A stretch of DNA of 64,000 bases from Bernardetia sp. (GTDB lineage Bacteria; Bacteroidota; Bacteroidia; Cytophagales; Bernardetiaceae). The stretch is from positions 248,001-312,000 of the forward strand of contig JAHDBD010000001.1 in assembly GCA_020630575.1 (NCBI GenBank), read 5' to 3'. Shown piece by piece: positions 6,286-30,103 of this stretch. The translations under genes were made by a program, and so were the position numbers. How positions within the stretch are numbered: position 1 is the first letter of the stretch; each line of letters starts with the position of its first letter. The notes under the pieces were generated by a model. That model made no database searches. It worked only from the letters and a program-made list of their open reading frames with translations, and had not been told where the DNA came from.

Positions 6286-7182
6286 ATGTATTACCGTCGC
6301 AAATTACTTCTATCTATTTTAGATAGTTTTGAGGGAGAATTATCAAACACTTATTTTCAAAAAGTTTTATTTCTTGTAACACGTTTACAAAAAAACAAAG
6401 CATTTGACTTTGTGCCTTATAAGTATGGCTGTTATTCTTTTCAAGCAAACCAAGACCTAAATACACTTACTAAATATGGATTAGTAGAAAAAGAAACAAA
6501 AAATAAACAATCTACTTGGAAATTGGTGGAAACAGATTCTCTTTTGTATAATTTGAATAAAGAAGACAAGCAATTTATTTTAGATGTAAAAAAACAAATA
6601 GAATTTTTATCGCTAAGAGAATTAGTAACATATACTTATATCAAATATCCTTTTTTTGCTACAAAAAGTCGTATTGCTGAAAGGTTATTATCACCAGAAG
6701 AGTTTGAAAAAGTCAATGAACAAAAGAGAAATCATACTTCTCAAAAACTTTTTACTATTGGTTATGAAGGAATTAGTTTAGAAAATTATCTAAATAAATT
6801 AATTATAAATGATGTAAAACTACTTTGTGATGTTAGAAAAAATCCATTAAGTATGAAGTATGGTTTTTCAAAAAAACGTCTTAAAAGTGCTTGTGAAGCT
6901 GTAGGAATCGAATATTTACATATTCCTCAATTAGGAATTGTATCATCTAAAAGACAAGAATTAAATACTCAAAAAGATTATGATATTTTGTTTAAGGAAT
7001 ATGAAAAAACTACTTTAAAAGAAAATGAAGAATATTTATTTTCAATAAATGATTACATAAATAAATATTCACGAATTGCGCTTACTTGTTTTGAAAAAGA
7101 GGTTTGTATGTGTCATAGAGGAGTTGTGCTGAAAAATATCATAAATCAAGAAAACTGGGATATTCCTCATCAAAATCTATAA
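6286..7182 (+). CDS. DUF488 family protein with an extra N-terminal domain
   Basis: DUF488 proteins are widespread and mostly uncharacterised. The C-terminal part (about residues 155-298) carries the family signature: FTIGYEGISLENYL, then CDVRKNPLSMKYGFSKKRL, then the C-terminal ALTCFEKEVCMCHR, where family members usually have a Cys-rich CHR box. The N-terminal 110 or so residues (YRRKLLLSILDSF, then QKVLFLVTRLQ, then FVPYKYGCYSFQ) are helical. They resemble the winged-helix or Panacea-like domains of some antitoxin and defence proteins; that resemblance is from memory and unverified. The stop lies 2 bases before the next ATG, so the two genes are almost certainly co-translated and probably act together. 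A TATCTTTG box lies upstream. The role is unknown; nucleic-acid binding is a reasonable guess. Confidence 0.75.
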   Translation: MYYRRKLLLSILDSFEGELSNTYFQKVLFLVTRLQKNKAFDFVPYKYGCYSFQANQDLNTLTKYGLVEKETKNKQSTWKLVETDSLLYNLNKEDKQFILDVKKQIEFLSLRELVTYTYIKYPFFATKSRIAERLLSPEEFEKVNEQKRNHTSQKLFTIGYEGISLENYLNKLIINDVKLLCDVRKNPLSMKYGFSKKRLKSACEAVGIEYLHIPQLGIVSSKRQELNTQKDYDILFKEYEKTTLKENEEYLFSINDYINKYSRIALTCFEKEVCMCHRGVVLKNIINQENWDIPHQNL

Positions 7183-7184
7183 AT

Positions 7185-8000
7185 ATGGCTATTGAAAGAG
7201 TATTAATAACAGTAAAAACATATCCTACTATTTCTGTAAAATACGACGAATTAGTGTGTACAGCAGGTTTCAGAAAAGATGGAACATGGATACGTATTTA
7301 TCCTATTCAGTTTAGAAAAAAATTATACGAGCAACAATACAAAAAGTATGAATGGATAGAAATTGATTTAGATAAAAATACAAGTGATCCACGACCAGAA
7401 AGTTATAGACCTCATTCTGAAGACACAGAAATTATAAAATTAGGAGAAATTCCAACTGATGGAAATACTTGGGAAGAGCGTAGAAAAATAGTATTGCAAA
7501 ATGTCTATACAGATTTAACTCTTTTAATTTCAGAGGCAAAAGACAAAAATATCTCTACTTCTTTAGCTGTTTTTAAACCAAAAAAGGTTCATAAATTTCT
7601 TTGTGAACCAGTAGAGAGAGAATGGGATTCTAATAAACTAGAATCATTAAAACAAATGAATTTATTTAGTAAAATCAAAGATAATAATTTCCAAGTAGTC
7701 AAAAAATTGCCTTACAAATTTTCTTATCAGTGGGAAGATAAAAATGGAAAAATTACCAAAATGATGATTGAAGACTGGGAAATAGGGCAACTATATTGGA
7801 ACTGTTTACGAAGACATGATGGGGACGAAATGAAAGCCTGTAAAGACGTTGAAAAAAAGTATTTTGATTTATTTGCCAAGAAAAAAGATATTTATTTGTT
7901 TTTGGGAACAACTAAAATTCATCATTATAGAGCCCCTAATCCTTTTGTTATAATTGGTGTTTTTCCTCCTAACCCAATTGTACAAGGTAGTTTGTTTTGA
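7185..8000 (+). CDS. Uncharacterised partner of the DUF488 protein
   Basis: I do not recognise a named family. The 271-aa protein is soluble, with no signal peptide or membrane segment. Its N-terminal 60 residues are predicted beta-rich (RVLITVKTYPTISVKYDELV, then CTAGFRKDGTWIRIYPI). The centre is charged, with DPRPESYRP around residue 69. The end is again beta-rich (KKDIYLFLGTTKIHHYRAPN, then PFVIIGVFPP), which could be a small-barrel or OB-like fold. It starts 2 bases after the DUF488 stop, so it is the second gene of a tight operon, and a function joint with DUF488 is inferred from that alone. Base composition is like the neighbours. The following 150 bases hold only AT-rich DNA and the start region of the next gene. 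Confidence 0.7.
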   Translation: MAIERVLITVKTYPTISVKYDELVCTAGFRKDGTWIRIYPIQFRKKLYEQQYKKYEWIEIDLDKNTSDPRPESYRPHSEDTEIIKLGEIPTDGNTWEERRKIVLQNVYTDLTLLISEAKDKNISTSLAVFKPKKVHKFLCEPVEREWDSNKLESLKQMNLFSKIKDNNFQVVKKLPYKFSYQWEDKNGKITKMMIEDWEIGQLYWNCLRRHDGDEMKACKDVEKKYFDLFAKKKDIYLFLGTTKIHHYRAPNPFVIIGVFPPNPIVQGSLF

Positions 8001-8136
8001 TAAAAAGCTAAATTATTGTTTCAATATAAAATTAAAAAAATAATGCTCTTCGACAAACTAACCACAAATTCACTAAAAATAGATAAATGTTTTGTAGTTT
8101 TGTCTTTAAACTTTACTACAAAAATAAGATAGAATT

Positions 8137-8146
8137 AAAGGAAGCG
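8137..8146 (+). promoter_or_regulatory. Purine-rich ribosome binding site deciding the 8154 start
   Basis: AAAGGAAGCG sits at Shine-Dalgarno distance from the ATG at 8154. Such a clear site is uncommon in this window and favours that ATG over the TTG codon directly before it. Confidence 0.5.
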
Positions 8147-8153
8147 TTTTTTG

Positions 8154-10859
8154 ATGAATACGGAGAATAAAAATACTGAACTCCCTAAGTTTTTTGCAGT
8201 TGATAACTTAACAGAGTCTTTGCAAAACGAATTTGATAAAAATAAAATTCGTCAGCAGGTTGCTTATCGTACTTTAGGTGCTTTTGCTTCTGAGTTTCAT
8301 AGTCTTCCTGATGAGAATTTACTCAAAACGGCTATTCTGTCGCATCAAATTGTATTTCCTTTATTAGAAAATTTATTTTTTACGGAAGATTCTACTAGTT
8401 CAGACCCTAATTTTTTTATAAAATCAGATGTTGTTTTTCAAAAATTAGATGCTTTTTCTGTTTTCTTTAAGAATGGTTTTTTAGAGCAATGGAAAAAATA
8501 TTGTTTGTCATTAAAAGAAGTTTCAGTTAATTTTTCTAAAGCCGAAAAAGAACAAATTATTGTCTATTGGCAACGCAAATTTGAGGTGGGTGTTGCTCCT
8601 TTAGAGTTTTCAAATTTTATTCAACAATCTATCGCCAATCTTGAAGCTCCTTCACTCTATCAAGGCACTTTTTTTCAAGATATTCAGCCTTCTGTTGGTC
8701 AGTCTTATACGTGTACACTTTCTATTTGGTCGTATTATTTATGGAAAACAAGTCTAAATAATGGAGGTAAAAATGGAAGTAATTATAATACACCTCCTGT
8801 TTTTTGGGCAAATGCAGCTTATTTTGTAGATGTTCCAAAACAAACTTTACTTTTTGGTTCTCAAGAAAGTGAAGCTCAAGATTTTTACCGTTCGATTGAT
8901 TCTAATTATCATATCATTGTCGGAAATTCTTTCAAAACTAGTCAACAAAATCAGTTAATTTGTTCTGAAAAAACCAAAGATAAAACTAAAAATAATGAAG
9001 AGGTAAGTTTTGCAGCCATTGACAACCGTGTTATGGCAGCTTATACACCTATTTATGAAAAAAATGCCTTTTCTCCTGTGCCTTTGCGTTTTGTTCGTTG
9101 GGCAACTGACAGACTTACTGACAAAGGTGTTATTGCTGTTTGGCTTCCATCAGTTGTCTTGCATGCGCCTACTTATGAGGGTTTTAGAAGGCGAGTACAG
9201 GCAGAATTTGATAGTATTTATGTGATGGATTTGGAATACAAAAATGTAGAAAAAGAAAACCCTAGCAATATTGTAGAAGAAAAAACAGAGTTATCAAAAG
9301 ACAGTACAAAAGACTTTAGTGCAAAAGAAAATGAATCGGCTTTGCTTTTTTTGGTTCGGAAGAATAAAAATAATTATTCAAATGGTTTTCGTTTGGCACA
9401 TTTGCGTTCTCAATGTCCTGTGTTTTATTGGAAATCTACTAAGCCTTACAAATCTTTAAAAAACTTTGGAGAAGCTCTTTCTCGCACACAATTTCAAAAT
9501 TTATCGTTCAAAAAAGTAAGTCAGGCTGTAAATTATTGGATTGCACTTCCAGAAGATGACTTTTTGGGGTTTATGCCTCTTTCTCATAAAGTTACACAAA
9601 CGGCACAGTTTGCAGATGAAGAAACAGCTCTTTTCAAATGGGCATCTCCTGCACTTCTGACAGCTAGAGATGAGTGGATGTACGATTTTGATAAAACTAA
9701 TTTAGAAAAAAAAGCAAGTTATTTTAGTGAGAATTATGAAGAAGAGCGTCAAAAGTGGCATAATTCTGACCAAAGCGAACTCTTGCAAAATTTCTTAGGC
9801 GTGAAAAGCACAACCAATCTGACAGATAAAACTAAGATAAAATGGAATGCCGAACTGATGCAACGTCTAAAAAGAAATGAAAGCACCAATTATGATTCAT
9901 TTAAAATTCGTGAGGCTTCTTATCGTCCTTTTGTAAAGCAGTTTGTTTATGTAGATGAGGTAATTACGCATCGTCCGTATCAACAATTTCGTTTTTTTCC
10001 ACTTCAAAAAGAACAAACACCAAACCCAACTATTTGTGTGACAGTTCATAAGCAAGTTCCTTTAGTGGTTCATGCAACCAATTTTATTCCTGATAATGGT
10101 TATGGTGCAAGAGCGACACATACATTTGCAAAATACTTTTTTGATGAAGAAACAAAAGAGTTTAAAGAAAATATTACTGATTGGGCATTAGAGCAGTTTC
10201 GTCATCATTATTCTTCCAAACCTGTAAAGTTTAAAGCAAAGAATTTTAAGGAGTTGAAAAAGAGTTTGCAGTCTATGAAAGACAATCAAGAAGAGGCAAG
10301 AACACTAACCAAAGACACTATTTTTGCTTATATCTATGCCGTCTTGCACTCACCAGAATACCGTAAAAAGTATCAGAAAATACTTCATACCGAACTGCCA
10401 CGAATTCCGATGTATGAAGATTTTTGGAAGTGGGCAACGTGGGGAGAAAAGTTATTAAATCTGCATCTCAATTATGAAGATGTTACAATTTATCCTTTAG
10501 AGCGAGAAGAAAAAGAAGATAATGAGGAAGAACAAACAGAGAGTAAATCTAAGAAAAAAGCTATCTTGAAAGCTGACAGAGTTCGCAGCTTAGTTTGGAT
10601 TGATGAAACTACCTATCTGAAAAACATTCCAGAAGAAGCGTGGCATTATCGTTTGGGTGTTCGTTCTGCTTTAGAATGGGTTTTGGAACACCACAGCGAA
10701 CGAAAATTAAGAGATAAAACTGTAAAAAAAGCCGTTGAAGAAGGTATTTTTACTACGTATTCTTTTGATAATCAAAAAGAACAACTCATTGAGCTTTTGA
10801 GAAAAGTATGTAGAGTGAGTGTCGAAACGGTGGAGATTTTGAGAGAGATGGAGGAGTAA
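8154..10859 (+). CDS. Type ISP methyltransferase-like protein lacking the catalytic motif
   Basis: Related to the methyltransferase and target-recognition half of Type ISP (LlaBIII-like) restriction-modification enzymes, but probably not an active methylase. Of 901 residues, APLEFSNFIQQSIANL (near residue 160) matches the start of the methylase domain. RFVRWATDRLTDKGVIAVWL and FRRRVQAEFDSIYVMDL match the strands after motif IV. The C-terminal part (NITDWALEQFRHHY, then FAYIYAVLHSPEYRKKY, then ELPRIPMYEDF) is a textbook Type ISP specificity region. The NPPY catalytic tetrapeptide is replaced by NSFK (residues 258-261, in IIVGNSFK). No AdoMet-binding motif I is visible, and no helicase or nuclease domain is present. 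Charged insertions occur near residues 362-395 and 785-805. It stands alone between a DUF488 pair and a terminator, and a paralogue lies at 27.1 kb. A DNA-binding or regulatory role is inferred. Confidence 0.8.
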   Translation: MNTENKNTELPKFFAVDNLTESLQNEFDKNKIRQQVAYRTLGAFASEFHSLPDENLLKTAILSHQIVFPLLENLFFTEDSTSSDPNFFIKSDVVFQKLDAFSVFFKNGFLEQWKKYCLSLKEVSVNFSKAEKEQIIVYWQRKFEVGVAPLEFSNFIQQSIANLEAPSLYQGTFFQDIQPSVGQSYTCTLSIWSYYLWKTSLNNGGKNGSNYNTPPVFWANAAYFVDVPKQTLLFGSQESEAQDFYRSIDSNYHIIVGNSFKTSQQNQLICSEKTKDKTKNNEEVSFAAIDNRVMAAYTPIYEKNAFSPVPLRFVRWATDRLTDKGVIAVWLPSVVLHAPTYEGFRRRVQAEFDSIYVMDLEYKNVEKENPSNIVEEKTELSKDSTKDFSAKENESALLFLVRKNKNNYSNGFRLAHLRSQCPVFYWKSTKPYKSLKNFGEALSRTQFQNLSFKKVSQAVNYWIALPEDDFLGFMPLSHKVTQTAQFADEETALFKWASPALLTARDEWMYDFDKTNLEKKASYFSENYEEERQKWHNSDQSELLQNFLGVKSTTNLTDKTKIKWNAELMQRLKRNESTNYDSFKIREASYRPFVKQFVYVDEVITHRPYQQFRFFPLQKEQTPNPTICVTVHKQVPLVVHATNFIPDNGYGARATHTFAKYFFDEETKEFKENITDWALEQFRHHYSSKPVKFKAKNFKELKKSLQSMKDNQEEARTLTKDTIFAYIYAVLHSPEYRKKYQKILHTELPRIPMYEDFWKWATWGEKLLNLHLNYEDVTIYPLEREEKEDNEEEQTESKSKKKAILKADRVRSLVWIDETTYLKNIPEEAWHYRLGVRSALEWVLEHHSERKLRDKTVKKAVEEGIFTTYSFDNQKEQLIELLRKVCRVSVETVEILREMEE

Positions 10860-12587: not shown

Positions 12588-14678
12588 ATGATTTCAGTAC
12601 GAAAAAATCCAAATGATGTTCCTGCTATTTTACAATCTCCAGAAACTGAAAAAGTTATTCAGACGGTTTTGGAGATAGGAAAGTTTGTGGGGTATCCTCG
12701 TCTGGATATTTTGATGCATGAAGATGTTTTGGGCAAACTTCTTGAAATTCATTATAACAAATGTGCCTTTTGTGAAGTAGGAATTTCTATTGAAGAATCA
12801 ACTGCTTTTCTGACTCATTATCGTCCACCAGAACTGTATTATTGGTTAATTTATGAATGGACAAACCTTTTACCCGTTTGTGAAGAATGTAAACTCTATG
12901 AAGATAGTCAGTTTCCAATAATGAATAAGCACAAACGAGTAAAAACTCCACCAGAAGATAGAACTTTTTGGCGTGCCAGTTCAGATATTCATTTGGCAGA
13001 AGATCCTCTTATTATCAATCCCGAATTAGATGTTCCTGAAAAATATATTGCCATTGATAGAGAAGGAAATTTACAGCCTATAAAAAGAAATTTGCGTGCA
13101 GCTTCTACTATTACAGCCTATAAAATAAATATGGGTTCGTCAGCAGTAGCTCGTCATCGAATTATACGTGAAATTACTCAAAAACTCTATCAAGCTGCTA
13201 CTGACCTTTTAGAAAAAACAGTTCGTTATCCAGCACCACTTTCATTATTACGAGAGCATTTTGAGCCTGTTTTGACAGAACTAAATGCAATGGCTGCACA
13301 ACGAACACCCCATGCTATGTTGGGTAAAAATATGCTTTTCAATTTTGAATATTTTTTTATTGAAGAGTGTGAAGATTTTGAAGTGATGCGTGTTTTGGAG
13401 CAAGTTCAAGTTCATTTTATAGAGACAATTACACCTTTCTTGAATATTGATTTTCCAGAAGAGCAGCGAGCAAGTGAAGACAATACACTTATTTTGGAGT
13501 CTATGTTTATCAAAAATATACGCTGTTTTGACAAACTATCAATTGATTTACCTCATATTCATACAAAAGAGAATATTACACTTATTGTAGGTACAAATGG
13601 AACAGGAAAATCGACAATTTTGCAACTTATTGCATTAGGTCTTTCCAATATTCCTAAACCTCCAATTAATTATGGCTGGGAAAATGTTGTTCATGGCAAT
13701 AAGGATGCAGGACATTTAGTATTGCGTCTACAAGGGTTTGGAGAAGAAGTAAATATTAAGTTTAAGATTGATAAAAATGGAGTGATGAATACAGGAAGTC
13801 ATCGTCGTTATTTTGAAATAATACGTGAAAACTTACTGATTCTAGGATACAGTACAGGAAAGAGAGGAATGAAAAATTACGATTTTCAACACCGTACTTT
13901 TGCGCCTATTGCTTCTTTATTTGGTGAAAATGGCTTTTTAAAAAGTGAAGACGACCATAGTACCTATTTTTACATAGAAAATAATATTGAAGCCATTCGA
14001 AAAATAGTTAATCGTTTGCTTTCTCCTCCTCAAAATATTGCAGAGAGTGACCAAGATGAAAAGTTAGAGCAAGGACTTTTAGGATTGAATAAAGATGGAG
14101 ATTTTATTTTTCAAACTTCTGCTGGAGAAGCTCTCATTTCGGCTATGTCAGATGGTTTTCAGACTGTCTTTAGTTGGATTTTGGATTTGTGTGTACGAGC
14201 CATCCAACATCCTTTTGATTTACAACATCCAGAAAGTATACAAGCAATTGTTTTGATTGATGAAATTGATGTACATTTAAGTCCTAATTTGCAGCGCACA
14301 CTTATTCCTCGGCTTTCAGAGGTTTTTCCAAATACGCAGTTTTTGGTAGGCACACAAAGTCCATTTATGATTCAATCAATGTCTGCTAATAATGTTATTT
14401 CTTTAGAATGGGAAGATGAGCGAATTATTGCTCACCCTCTTTTGATGGAAGGAATGCCTTGGGCTTGGACAATCAGCGAAATTTTGGCTCGTCTTTTAGG
14501 AAGTGTAACCGAAATTTCGCCTATTATGGATGATTATTTGACTGAATTATCACAAGCTATTGGGAAAAATGATAAGCTCTATGCAGAGCAATTGTATCTA
14601 AAAGTAAAAAATGCACTCCCCAAACTAAGTCCATATCATGAGTATTTAGAAATAATAGCGAAAGACTATTTTGAATAA
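12588..14678 (+). CDS. HNH-type nuclease fused to AAA/ABC-type ATPase, Septu-like
   Basis: Candidate anti-phage effector. The 696-aa protein joins two parts that are separate genes (PtuB and PtuA) in Septu and in retron Ec78. Residues 50-105 form an HNH-like zinc nuclease: CAFC (C59, C62), HYRP (H77, R79), then NLLPVCEECK (C98, C101), as in the TIGR02646-type HNH family. Residues from about 315 form an ATPase: Walker A GTNGTGKST at 335-343, an SDGFQTVFSW signature-like loop near 522, and Walker B AIVLIDEIDVH at 553-563, followed by GTQSPFMIQS. All visible catalytic residues are intact. The order is nuclease first. It stands alone after gldC; no reverse transcriptase or second effector is adjacent. 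Domain calls rest on visible motifs, and the defence role is inferred. Confidence 0.82.
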   Translation: MISVRKNPNDVPAILQSPETEKVIQTVLEIGKFVGYPRLDILMHEDVLGKLLEIHYNKCAFCEVGISIEESTAFLTHYRPPELYYWLIYEWTNLLPVCEECKLYEDSQFPIMNKHKRVKTPPEDRTFWRASSDIHLAEDPLIINPELDVPEKYIAIDREGNLQPIKRNLRAASTITAYKINMGSSAVARHRIIREITQKLYQAATDLLEKTVRYPAPLSLLREHFEPVLTELNAMAAQRTPHAMLGKNMLFNFEYFFIEECEDFEVMRVLEQVQVHFIETITPFLNIDFPEEQRASEDNTLILESMFIKNIRCFDKLSIDLPHIHTKENITLIVGTNGTGKSTILQLIALGLSNIPKPPINYGWENVVHGNKDAGHLVLRLQGFGEEVNIKFKIDKNGVMNTGSHRRYFEIIRENLLILGYSTGKRGMKNYDFQHRTFAPIASLFGENGFLKSEDDHSTYFYIENNIEAIRKIVNRLLSPPQNIAESDQDEKLEQGLLGLNKDGDFIFQTSAGEALISAMSDGFQTVFSWILDLCVRAIQHPFDLQHPESIQAIVLIDEIDVHLSPNLQRTLIPRLSEVFPNTQFLVGTQSPFMIQSMSANNVISLEWEDERIIAHPLLMEGMPWAWTISEILARLLGSVTEISPIMDDYLTELSQAIGKNDKLYAEQLYLKVKNALPKLSPYHEYLEIIAKDYFE

Positions 14679-27133: not shown

Positions 27134-30103
27134 ATGAATCTTCCTCCATTTCCTTTCTTTAAAACTTATTTTCCTTCGCTAAATTTAGTGCAGTTTTCAG
27201 CTACACTGGTGCAGCTTTGGGATAATTATCATGTTATTTGGGCAAAAATTGAGGTAAACAAAAATTTAGAAAAAGAGAGTTTAAAAATTACGTCTATTCA
27301 ACAAAAATCAATTTTAATAGCTGATTATAAGCAGCTTAATAAAGAAGAAATACAATTTTTAGAAGATATTCATAATTTGTCAATAGAGTTTTATCAAAAA
27401 ATAAATCTACTTTTAGAACAAGTTAAAAAAGATTTTATAAAACAAAAAAAAGAAATTGAAAATCAGTTTCGAAAAGGTTTTTCTACTCAGCAAAAAGAAG
27501 ATTTAAAGCCTATTATTCAGCTCTTGGAAGAAGGTGGACATTCAATTTATTTGCTTTCTGAATGGATTACAATTTTTGAGTTTTGGAAAACCATTTATGC
27601 AAAAAGTAATTTAAAAAAATCATTCTTTCAAAGACAGGAAATTTTAAAATCAATAAATAATTTTCTAACTAGCTTTTATAACAATTCTCATAAACTAGAA
27701 ATTCCTGCTTCTTATCTTGAAATAGAGCGTTTTGTAAATGATTTTTCTCAAAAAAATAAGATAAAGGAAAGCGAAGTTTTGTTGTATGGAATTTTTAATG
27801 GAATACGAAATGAATTTTTGAATCATAATCTTGAAAGTCAGAAGGCAAAACTAGATTTTATTCCAATTATTCAACAAAAAATAAATCAAATTAAGCCTAA
27901 AAGGATTTTGCTCAATGATAATGAAATTTTAAAGTCATTGGAGTTTAATAGTGAAGAGTTTAAAAAGAAAACACTATTTGGAGCTTTTGAAAGTTTTTTC
28001 GATTTGCTTTTGGCTTTTTCTACTCAAAATGAAACTTCACAATTTGGATTTGAAGCAAAGAAACCAATTTCACAAGTGGGGATTTTTGGTCTTTCGAAAA
28101 ATTCAGAACTTATAAATAGAATAGAAATAATTGATTATGAGTTAATTATCTTGAATGCTGATACTCAAAATTTTCATTCTATAAAAGAAATTTCACTTTT
28201 CCAATCTCTAACTAAAAAAGAAAAACAGCTTTTTGCTTCCATTCAAAATGCCTTTAAATCGCTTTCAGAAAATGGAATTTTATTTGTTTGTTTGAATGAA
28301 AATCAGAATGATTTCATAGCGAAAAAATCGCTTTCTTCTCTTCGTCGTTTGTTGCAAGAGTGGTTTGAAAGAATTGAAATTTATGAAACTAGAACTAAAA
28401 ATGAAACTACTTTAGGACTATTCTTTTATAAGAAAACAGAGCTAGAAAAAGGAGTTTATTATTCCTTAGATAAAGACAAAATTCATTTTACGACTAATTT
28501 TCTGCTTGGTAGCTGGAAACCGAAACCAATTTTGTCAGAGTATCAAAAACTTATTCCTGTCATTGCTTCAAAAGAAAACAAAAATTCTCTTTTTAAGATA
28601 TATTTTAGAGCTATTCCAACACAGAAAATGGAAGATTTTGTTCAGTTAAATACTAAGTTGAAATCTAAAAAAGAAAATAATCTGAAAATCAAAGTAAAAG
28701 AGTTTGTTCAAAATTACAATCAGCAAATTATAAAATCAGAAGAACAAGAAAAGAGTAAATTAGAAAAAAAGAAAACCGTCTTGGTTTCCAAACTGGCAAC
28801 AAATACACTTTTTGAAAAAGATACTATAAAAGTGATTGAAGAAAAGATTGAGAAAAAAGTTGAAGGAAAAATAAATCACAAAACAGAAAGTAAGCTATTA
28901 GAATTTGATGAGAAGAATTTAGTCGAAACTCAAATTTCTGTTTTTGAGGAAGGCTTTTGGTATTATGAAAAAAGTGTTTTTGAAAACTTTTATGATTTAG
29001 ATAAAATTTTTCCAAATCGAAAGCAAGGTGAAAATATTCTTATTTTTTGGACAAATACTTCAACTGGAGGTGAAGTTTGGGCAACTGATAAGCCAATTCC
29101 ACCTAGTTTTTTGAATGATATTTTAACAAATGCGTATATTTTTCCTTTTTATATTTATGAAAAAACTGAAAATGGAATCAAGAAAAAAATCAATTTTTCA
29201 AAAAATACACTTCATAAATTTAGAAGAGGCTATGCAGCAGCTTTTGAAAAACGAATTGAAAAAGTAGAAGAAGCTATTCAAACTTTATTTGACTTATCCG
29301 AATTTGAATTTTTGCAAGTCAATCAGGAATTAGCCTTTGAATTACGAGCTTTGTTTAATATAATAGATAAAGATGAAAGCAAAATGACAAAAGAGTTGAA
29401 AAAAAATTTGCATCATCCAGAAACAAATACGTACATACAATTTGAGCAAATCAAACGAGTTTTTACAAACACAAAACGAACTTTTGAAAGATTAGAAAAT
29501 AAAGCAGCACGAAATAAAGAAAGTTTCGAAACGCTAAGAAATTATTTCCAAGAATCAGAAAAAGCCATTGATTTTATAGAAAGTTATTGGGAAAAACTAG
29601 AAGCAGAAGAAGCCAATAATTTTGTAGTTCCTACGGAAGAAAATATCACTAATAAACTTATTCTAGGTTATATTTTTGCCGTTTGGCAGCGTGATATTTT
29701 TAAATCTAAATACAAAGAAGAACTAAAAAATGAAGCTCCACGCATTCCGATTTATAAAGATTTTCATCATTTTGCCAATCAAGGAGAGTTTCTTTTACAA
29801 AAATACCTAACTCCAACTAGTAACAAAATTGAGTTTGAGATTGTAGAGGTTTTTGAAGAAAAAATAAGTAAAACTAAGCAATTTTCTAAAACTTGGTTTG
29901 TGAAAGAAAATACCATTTGGTACGACAAAACTACTTTTTTACAGTCTGAAACAGACTTAGATTTTGATAAAATCAAGAGTTTTCAAATAAATCAAAAATC
30001 ATTTTTAGAATTTGCTTTAAAATATTTGAGAAAAAACAAAGTAGATTTGAATGAAGGAAAACAGATTTTAGAAAACGTAATTGAGTTTGTAAGTGGATTT
30101 TAA
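27134..30103 (+). CDS. Second Type ISP methyltransferase-like protein, strongly eroded
   Basis: Paralogue of the 901-aa protein at 8.2 kb, with even less of the methylase left. In 989 aa, the region DYELIILNADTQNF occupies the place of the NPPY strand; it reads NADT at residues 341-344, so the catalytic motif is gone. SENGILFVCLNENQ and SSLRRLLQEWFERIEIYET match GVIAVWLPSVV and FRRRVQAEFDSIYVMDL of the first copy. The C-terminal specificity-like region is the best conserved: ITNKLILGYIFAVWQRDIFK, SKYKEELKNEAPRIPIYKDF and HHFANQGEFLLQKYL. The N-terminal 330 residues are lysine-rich helices without known motifs. Single gene, divergent from clpP and convergent with nadK. It is long, intact and AT-rich like the neighbours, so it is under selection rather than a fresh pseudogene. 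Role unknown. Confidence 0.68.
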   Translation: MNLPPFPFFKTYFPSLNLVQFSATLVQLWDNYHVIWAKIEVNKNLEKESLKITSIQQKSILIADYKQLNKEEIQFLEDIHNLSIEFYQKINLLLEQVKKDFIKQKKEIENQFRKGFSTQQKEDLKPIIQLLEEGGHSIYLLSEWITIFEFWKTIYAKSNLKKSFFQRQEILKSINNFLTSFYNNSHKLEIPASYLEIERFVNDFSQKNKIKESEVLLYGIFNGIRNEFLNHNLESQKAKLDFIPIIQQKINQIKPKRILLNDNEILKSLEFNSEEFKKKTLFGAFESFFDLLLAFSTQNETSQFGFEAKKPISQVGIFGLSKNSELINRIEIIDYELIILNADTQNFHSIKEISLFQSLTKKEKQLFASIQNAFKSLSENGILFVCLNENQNDFIAKKSLSSLRRLLQEWFERIEIYETRTKNETTLGLFFYKKTELEKGVYYSLDKDKIHFTTNFLLGSWKPKPILSEYQKLIPVIASKENKNSLFKIYFRAIPTQKMEDFVQLNTKLKSKKENNLKIKVKEFVQNYNQQIIKSEEQEKSKLEKKKTVLVSKLATNTLFEKDTIKVIEEKIEKKVEGKINHKTESKLLEFDEKNLVETQISVFEEGFWYYEKSVFENFYDLDKIFPNRKQGENILIFWTNTSTGGEVWATDKPIPPSFLNDILTNAYIFPFYIYEKTENGIKKKINFSKNTLHKFRRGYAAAFEKRIEKVEEAIQTLFDLSEFEFLQVNQELAFELRALFNIIDKDESKMTKELKKNLHHPETNTYIQFEQIKRVFTNTKRTFERLENKAARNKESFETLRNYFQESEKAIDFIESYWEKLEAEEANNFVVPTEENITNKLILGYIFAVWQRDIFKSKYKEELKNEAPRIPIYKDFHHFANQGEFLLQKYLTPTSNKIEFEIVEVFEEKISKTKQFSKTWFVKENTIWYDKTTFLQSETDLDFDKIKSFQINQKSFLEFALKYLRKNKVDLNEGKQILENVIEFVSGF

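Follow-up and report, generated by a model that had tools for sequence, protein, structure and literature searches.

The locus and architecture of ORF-A

The window analysed here is a stretch of 64,000 nucleotides from Bernardetia sp. (contig JAHDBD010000001.1, positions 248,001 to 312,000 of the forward strand). Its genome, G000, is a draft of 5.31 Mb in 94 contigs. The subject of this study is ORF-A, an open reading frame at 8151/8154-10859 (+) that encodes 901-902 amino acids (aa) with no internal stop. AAAGGAAG at 8137-8144 precedes the ATG at 8154. Public records label the ORF-A family as a restriction/modification enzyme; the orthologue in Bernardetia litoralis DSM 6794 is named Fleli_1084. 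The only Pfam match was the Type_ISP_C domain (PF18135) at residues 493-881, with 284.3 bits against a cut-off of 25.9; it spans positions 2-342 of the 342 in the profile, and its score is far beyond chance. None of the nuclease, helicase and methyltransferase models in Pfam reached an expectation value (E) of 0.001 on ORF-A, and the NCBIfam scan gave no family at that threshold. A previous sequence-only reading had described a full-length frame with a C-terminal match to the specificity region of Type ISP enzymes and no helicase or nuclease attached. These points were all confirmed, the 901 codons running without interruption. The features of ORF-A are as follows.

8154..10859 (+): ORF-A, intact 901-codon gene for a Type IIL/ISP-family protein without nuclease and without the NPPY motif
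8166..8573 (+): N-terminal helical part, structural equivalent of the segment that follows the nuclease in DrdV; least conserved
8586..9473 (+): degenerate gamma-class N6-adenine methyltransferase fold, from a modestly predicted model
8646..8672 (+): destroyed S-adenosylmethionine (AdoMet) motif I, APSLYQGTF for DP[AC]TGTGT[FY], by alignment with active relatives
8925..8936 (+): destroyed catalytic motif IV, NSFK (N-SF) for NPPY, by alignment with active relatives
9630..10796 (+): Type_ISP_C specificity (target-recognition) domain PF18135, Pfam match
9645..9668 (+): predicted DNA-reading loop IV (498-505), mapped from LlaGI (PMC4872093)
9960..9983 (+): predicted DNA-reading loop V (603-610, VITHRPYQ), mapped from LlaGI
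10029..10076 (+): predicted hairpin bracing loop VI (626-641), mapping extrapolated past the aligned part
10083..10118 (+): predicted DNA-reading loop VI (644-655, FIPDNGYGARAT), mapping extrapolated
10560..10853 (+): guide-like C-terminal subdomain (803-900), from conservation among 14 proteins

Among these 14 proteins, residues 1-130 are the least conserved part (54/130 invariant), and 84 of the 98 residues of the guide-like subdomain are invariant.

Fold and nearest known systems

The nearest solved relative of ORF-A is DrdV (1029 aa, E 3e-73), followed by LlaGI (1.8e-33) and LlaBIII (2.1e-20). Structure prediction gave a model with both methyltransferase and specificity folds in a DrdV-type arrangement, the alignment beginning at DrdV residue 143. 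ORF-A shares the methyltransferase-plus-recognition fold of DrdV (PDB 7lo5/7lvv), a Type IIL enzyme, but has no N-terminal nuclease, motif I or NPPY, and its predicted loops are nearly fixed between species. With the Type ISP enzymes LlaBIII (4xqk) and LlaGI (5ffj), which are less similar in sequence than DrdV, it shares the PF18135 domain; their Mrr-type nuclease, superfamily 2 (SF2) helicase-like ATPase and catalytic methyltransferase motifs are all missing, and a Type ISP single chain has about 1500 aa compared with 901 aa in ORF-A. Because DrdV and not a 1500-aa ISP enzyme is the nearest solved relative, the absence of a helicase is ordinary, although the earlier reading had implied an anomaly there. 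The anomalies are the missing nuclease and the dead methyltransferase motifs. For the label "Type ISP-like", the Type IIL/ISP family with DrdV as nearest member is the better name. ORF-A is a real, conserved member of this family without catalytic motifs, and it falls outside both Type ISP and Type IIL proper.

The sister of ORF-A in the tree (support 97/95) is a 442-447 aa protein of Hugenholtzia roseola (P0052 / L059), which consists of the recognition half only. Its NCBI name is "type ISP restriction/modification enzyme". The tree was built from 37 hand-picked rows, 15 of its 34 inner branches are open, and long branches meet in it. Two splits were used, namely the ORF-A plus Hugenholtzia clade and the separation of the ORF-B group described below (95/89, with a long-branch warning).

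Loss of the catalytic motifs

ORF-A was aligned with five NPPY-bearing single-chain active relatives. Residues 165-173 (APSLYQGTF) align with DP[AC]TGTGT[FY], which is present in 5/5 of them, indicating that the acidic residue and the first glycine of motif I have been lost. Of 14 relatives, 2 have A or S in place of the remaining glycine, G171. A degenerate motif I can thus be located, although the earlier reading had called it not visible. At the NPPY position, where all five active relatives keep NPPY, residues 258-261 of ORF-A read GN-SFK. The change consists of one deleted residue and a P to S replacement, with the N and the aromatic residue kept, so the replacement of NPPY by NSFK reported earlier is correct. 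The N-terminal part of the five relatives has no counterpart in ORF-A.

A protein database search scored 7,991 candidates, those sharing most words. GNSFK was found in all 14 genus-level proteins and NPPY in none, which indicates that the loss of NPPY is old and fixed; the alignment of homologues proposed earlier thus shows a loss conserved across species. With both folds in the model and NPPY in 0 of 14 homologues, neither outcome that the earlier reading named as refuting it was observed. N258 and F260 are invariant in 14/14 proteins, and residues 287-322 in the methyltransferase half are mostly invariant across six genomes. Elsewhere in this genome, on contigs C33, C63, C60, C17, C50 and C15, six more long PF18135 relatives are encoded outside the window, and NPPY is present in 6/6. 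Judging from the motif loss, methylation by ORF-A is likely inactive. CamA and other orphan gamma-class adenine methyltransferases differ in this respect, since CamA methylates DNA and ORF-A is without both required motifs.

Conservation, selection and inheritance

A copy of ORF-A is intact in 7/7 Bernardetia genomes examined. Dihydroorotase is encoded no more than 6 kb away in G000, G001, G002, G003, G005 and G110, and G004 differs; ORF-A has been inherited vertically at one chromosomal neighbourhood in 6/7 genomes. The ratio of non-synonymous to synonymous substitution (dN/dS) was 0.103 over 15 pairs of six genomes, indicating purifying selection. It was lowest in residues 691-785 and 805-901 (C-terminal parts, 0.034-0.037) and highest in residues 1-130 (0.216). 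A pseudogene or an assembly error was rejected on these grounds, and the earlier view that the gene is not decaying is borne out.

G110 is a second genome of the window species (96% complete). It was used for the pairwise, PF18135, neighbour and M19B comparisons, and stood outside the dN/dS, loop and upstream comparisons. Aligned with ORF-A, its orthologue shows 21 differing positions, and the loops contain none of these. PF18135 occurs in G110 only in ORF-A and ORF-B, and the same holds for G002 (97% complete), where ORF-B is broken. Since ORF-A is intact in all seven genomes and G110 has no further PF18135 protein, ORF-A belongs to the core genes and the active relatives to the accessory ones.

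The G005 orthologue (L053:9563-12559) carries a low-complexity repeat of 90-odd residues, built of SEKVETTSC-like units, between the recognition core and the guide, and its frame is open.

Predicted specificity loops

According to the structural report on LlaGI and LlaBIII (PMC4872093), loops IV-VI of the recognition domain read the DNA, and across 552 enzymes the part of the recognition core surface that contacts DNA shows no strong conservation. In ORF-A, the 44 predicted loop and hairpin residues were identical in 15/15 pairs of the six genomes, and 42 of the 44 were invariant among the 14 proteins. Between ORF-A and the Hugenholtzia protein, 32/44 loop residues were identical, compared with 55/143 in the rest of the recognition core. 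As controls, 13 sequences were used that bear NPPY, are split halves or are of the ISP type, the Type IIG rows C15, C17 and C50 being left out. The loops of the controls were better conserved than the rest in 28/78 pairs; in the 17 closer pairs listed this was so in 5, none significantly. The loop boundaries were redrawn once before the final test, and both versions agree in direction for ORF-A. Under the first boundaries, only loop IV of the controls exceeded the rest (0.60 vs 0.43). The data show that the predicted specificity loops, which are variable among active relatives, are near-constant in ORF-A. The earlier claim that DNA recognition is kept holds as a prediction from the fold and the loop conservation. 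Because the Hugenholtzia protein is without the methyltransferase half, it is probably recognition that selection acts on.

A 447-aa stand-alone specificity-domain protein is encoded at L064:4357-5700 (-) in G008, on an 11.4 kb contig in which no methyltransferase-like gene was seen. L064 was at first assumed to be a relative of ORF-A and was then dropped, as tree and loops give no support.

Upstream region

Two blocks upstream of ORF-A are conserved.

8090..8103 (+): conserved block TTTTGTAGTTTTGT, likely promoter by inference; 13/14 columns invariant in 5 aligned genomes
8046..8057 (+): conserved block CTCTTCGACAAA, possible operator; one to few mismatches in some genomes

TTTTGTAGTTTTGT resembles the consensus TAnnTTTG. 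When seven upstream regions were compared, the best 14-column window was that of ORF-A (13 invariant columns vs 7-12); G005 stood outside this comparison because of an insertion before its ORF-A start codon. The genes upstream of ORF-A differ between genomes, and a conserved block beside changing neighbours fits a kept promoter.

Other relatives without NPPY

Further relatives without NPPY or motif I are ORF-B, a polA-linked family and a ligA-linked family. ORF-B lies in the window at 27134-30103 (+), encodes 989 aa, is the second NPPY-less PF18135 protein there and adjoins clpP. Its orthologues at the same place are intact in the 5 genus genomes compared and in G110, and broken in G002; dN/dS was 0.26. 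Its structure model was too poor for use (mean predicted local distance difference test score (pLDDT) 54.4, predicted template modelling score (pTM) 0.30).

The polA-linked proteins (824-828 aa; L096, L097, L099 and L100) show full synteny at 4/4 loci, the gene beside them being one that we take to be polA-like from its sequence. Near-full-length copies were found in 9/18 genomes of that family, and these nine all belong to a single genus; another 7 of the 18 gave weaker matches. The motifs were checked in four copies. L098 (G055), which is also NPPY-less, belongs to the same protein family as the polA-linked ones and stands at a different locus. The ligA-linked proteins (534-536 aa; L092, L093, L094 and L102) are syntenic at 4/4 loci, and in each of these the gene abuts or overlaps a neighbour that is presumably ligA-like. 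The residues at the NPPY position differ among the NPPY-less groups.

It is conceivable, though we hold this only tentatively, that Cytophagales repeatedly turned Type IIL/ISP enzymes into fixed non-catalytic readers of chromosomal sites, with control or maintenance sites as targets. The lineages behind this idea are ORF-A, ORF-B beside clpP and the polA-linked and ligA-linked proteins; the number of losses is not set by the tree.

Neighbouring genes and split systems

PDC-M19A (with a DUF488 domain) and PDC-M19B form a pair at 6286-8000 (+), co-directional with ORF-A. A 696-aa AAA ATPase with PtuA-like PADLOC matches (best 195 bits) lies at 12588-14678 (+); it is 93% identical in G003 and 99.7% identical over a cut copy in G110. 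Split Type IIL-like systems were observed at L060, L061, L062 and L063, where about 0.8-1.1 kb separates an N-half that bears NPPY from a specificity half of its own.

Proposed role of ORF-A

In this study, we believe that ORF-A is probably a fixed-site DNA-binding protein, which likely serves to regulate or organise the DNA of the cell that encodes it, and not to restrict or methylate that DNA. The sequence-only reading had offered a DNA-binding regulator, an anti-restriction decoy or part of a new defence system, and the first appears to be the best of the three. Following the DrdV/LlaGI fold, the dead methyltransferase and the recognition domain would together clamp one fixed asymmetric DNA site. 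The output may come through occupancy, and perhaps bending, of this chromosomal site; for LlaGI and LlaBIII, a DNA bend of about 34 degrees is described (PMC4872093). The sites might include the promoter of ORF-A itself, and autoregulation is speculation.

Several points weigh against this interpretation. The role is proposed from the sequence and a predicted model, and in that model the methyltransferase part is poorly predicted (10-residue blocks with pLDDT of 23-85). The loop mapping relies on LlaGI numbering with an inferred offset, the hairpin and loop VI being extrapolated. The guide and the helical segment are also strongly constrained, as in active relatives; constraint on the guide roughly equals that on the loops, and the real function could therefore lie with a protein partner. 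pyrC (0.068) and nadK (0.037) are more constrained in dN/dS than ORF-A as a whole. N258 and the aromatic residue still stand at motif IV, so adenine flipping may have been kept. L064, another specificity-only protein of the family, matches the loops of ORF-A at 9/43. The upstream region of w32868 has a larger invariant share (85/169 in 4 genomes) than that of ORF-A (65/191 in 5). For CTCTTCGACAAA, the window gave 11 matches at <=2 mismatches vs 7.6 expected, which is no enrichment; a relaxed pattern gave 33, 28 and 41 matches in three genomes, compared with 31, 48 and 41 for the reversed control. The searches of the window and these three genomes yielded no nameable regulon.

Alternatively, ORF-A may serve an active Type IIL/ISP partner in trans as its specificity or regulatory subunit, which we regard as unlikely. 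G001, G003 and G004 contain split pairs (L061, L062 and L063) whose N-halves bear NPPY, and the strong conservation of the guide and helical parts would suit a subunit, but split specificity proteins vary their loops between species and ORF-A hardly does. Moreover, G002 and G110 have PF18135 only in ORF-A and ORF-B, partners without PF18135 not having been searched for.

It is improbable that ORF-A is a decoy or shield, protecting host sites from restriction or methylation by co-resident enzymes that share its specificity. By prediction, ORF-A binds DNA and leaves it unmodified, and the window genome has six NPPY-bearing relatives. These relatives come and go between genomes while the loops stay near-constant, and ORF-A persists in G002 and G110, where no active relative was found among proteins with PF18135. 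The decoy proposed earlier is therefore not upheld.

We give equally little weight to ORF-A as a reader of methylation state, or a non-catalytic adenine flipper, that senses the marks of other methyltransferases. The invariance of N258 and F260 and the mostly invariant residues 287-322 would agree with such a role. Motif I is nevertheless destroyed, and the Hugenholtzia relative keeps most loop residues without a methyltransferase half.

It is very improbable that ORF-A and the genes PDC-M19A and PDC-M19B form an anti-phage system in which ORF-A is the recognition module. PADLOC counts both as candidate defence genes, and the pair stands beside ORF-A in 3/7 genus genomes (G000, where it is adjacent and co-directional, G003 and G005). 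However, M19B is absent from G001, G002, G004 and the conspecific G110, a different gene occupies the position of the pair in G110 and G001, and in G005 M19B is broken by a TAG while ORF-A is intact. M19B was present in 6/59 genomes searched, including G010 and G039, which gave no match to the ORF-A query. This patchy linkage, together with the absences of M19B, refutes an obligate M19 system; a defence operon with M19A/B was rejected, and the suggested part in a new defence system is not supported. Least credible of all is a slowly decaying, functionless remnant of a restriction enzyme, because the lost motifs and the relaxed residues 1-130 (dN/dS 0.22) stand against an overall dN/dS of 0.10, the 0.034-0.037 of the C-terminal parts and intact copies in all seven genomes.

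Biological meaning

The usual picture of restriction enzymes is one of mobile defence genes that change fast and diversify their specificity loops. ORF-A, which we take as probably a fixed-site DNA-binding protein, reverses this pattern: it is a core gene, its catalytic motifs are gone, and no part of its recognition core is more constant than the predicted loops. In our searches of open papers on Bernardetia, DrdV, Type ISP enzymes and restriction enzymes that have been domesticated or inactivated, no account of a protein like this came up. Orphan methyltransferases that are conserved while the restriction systems beside them are patchy have been described (PMC6471742), but these are methyltransferases, unlike ORF-A, which is without methylation motifs. 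If binding is confirmed, ORF-A would show a defence enzyme turning into a housekeeping DNA-binding protein, would correct the view of a family publicly named "type ISP restriction/modification enzyme", and would open a testable way to a regulator of a kind that our literature searches did not turn up. If the repeated conversion is true, restriction enzymes would have given bacteria new DNA-binding regulators time and again.
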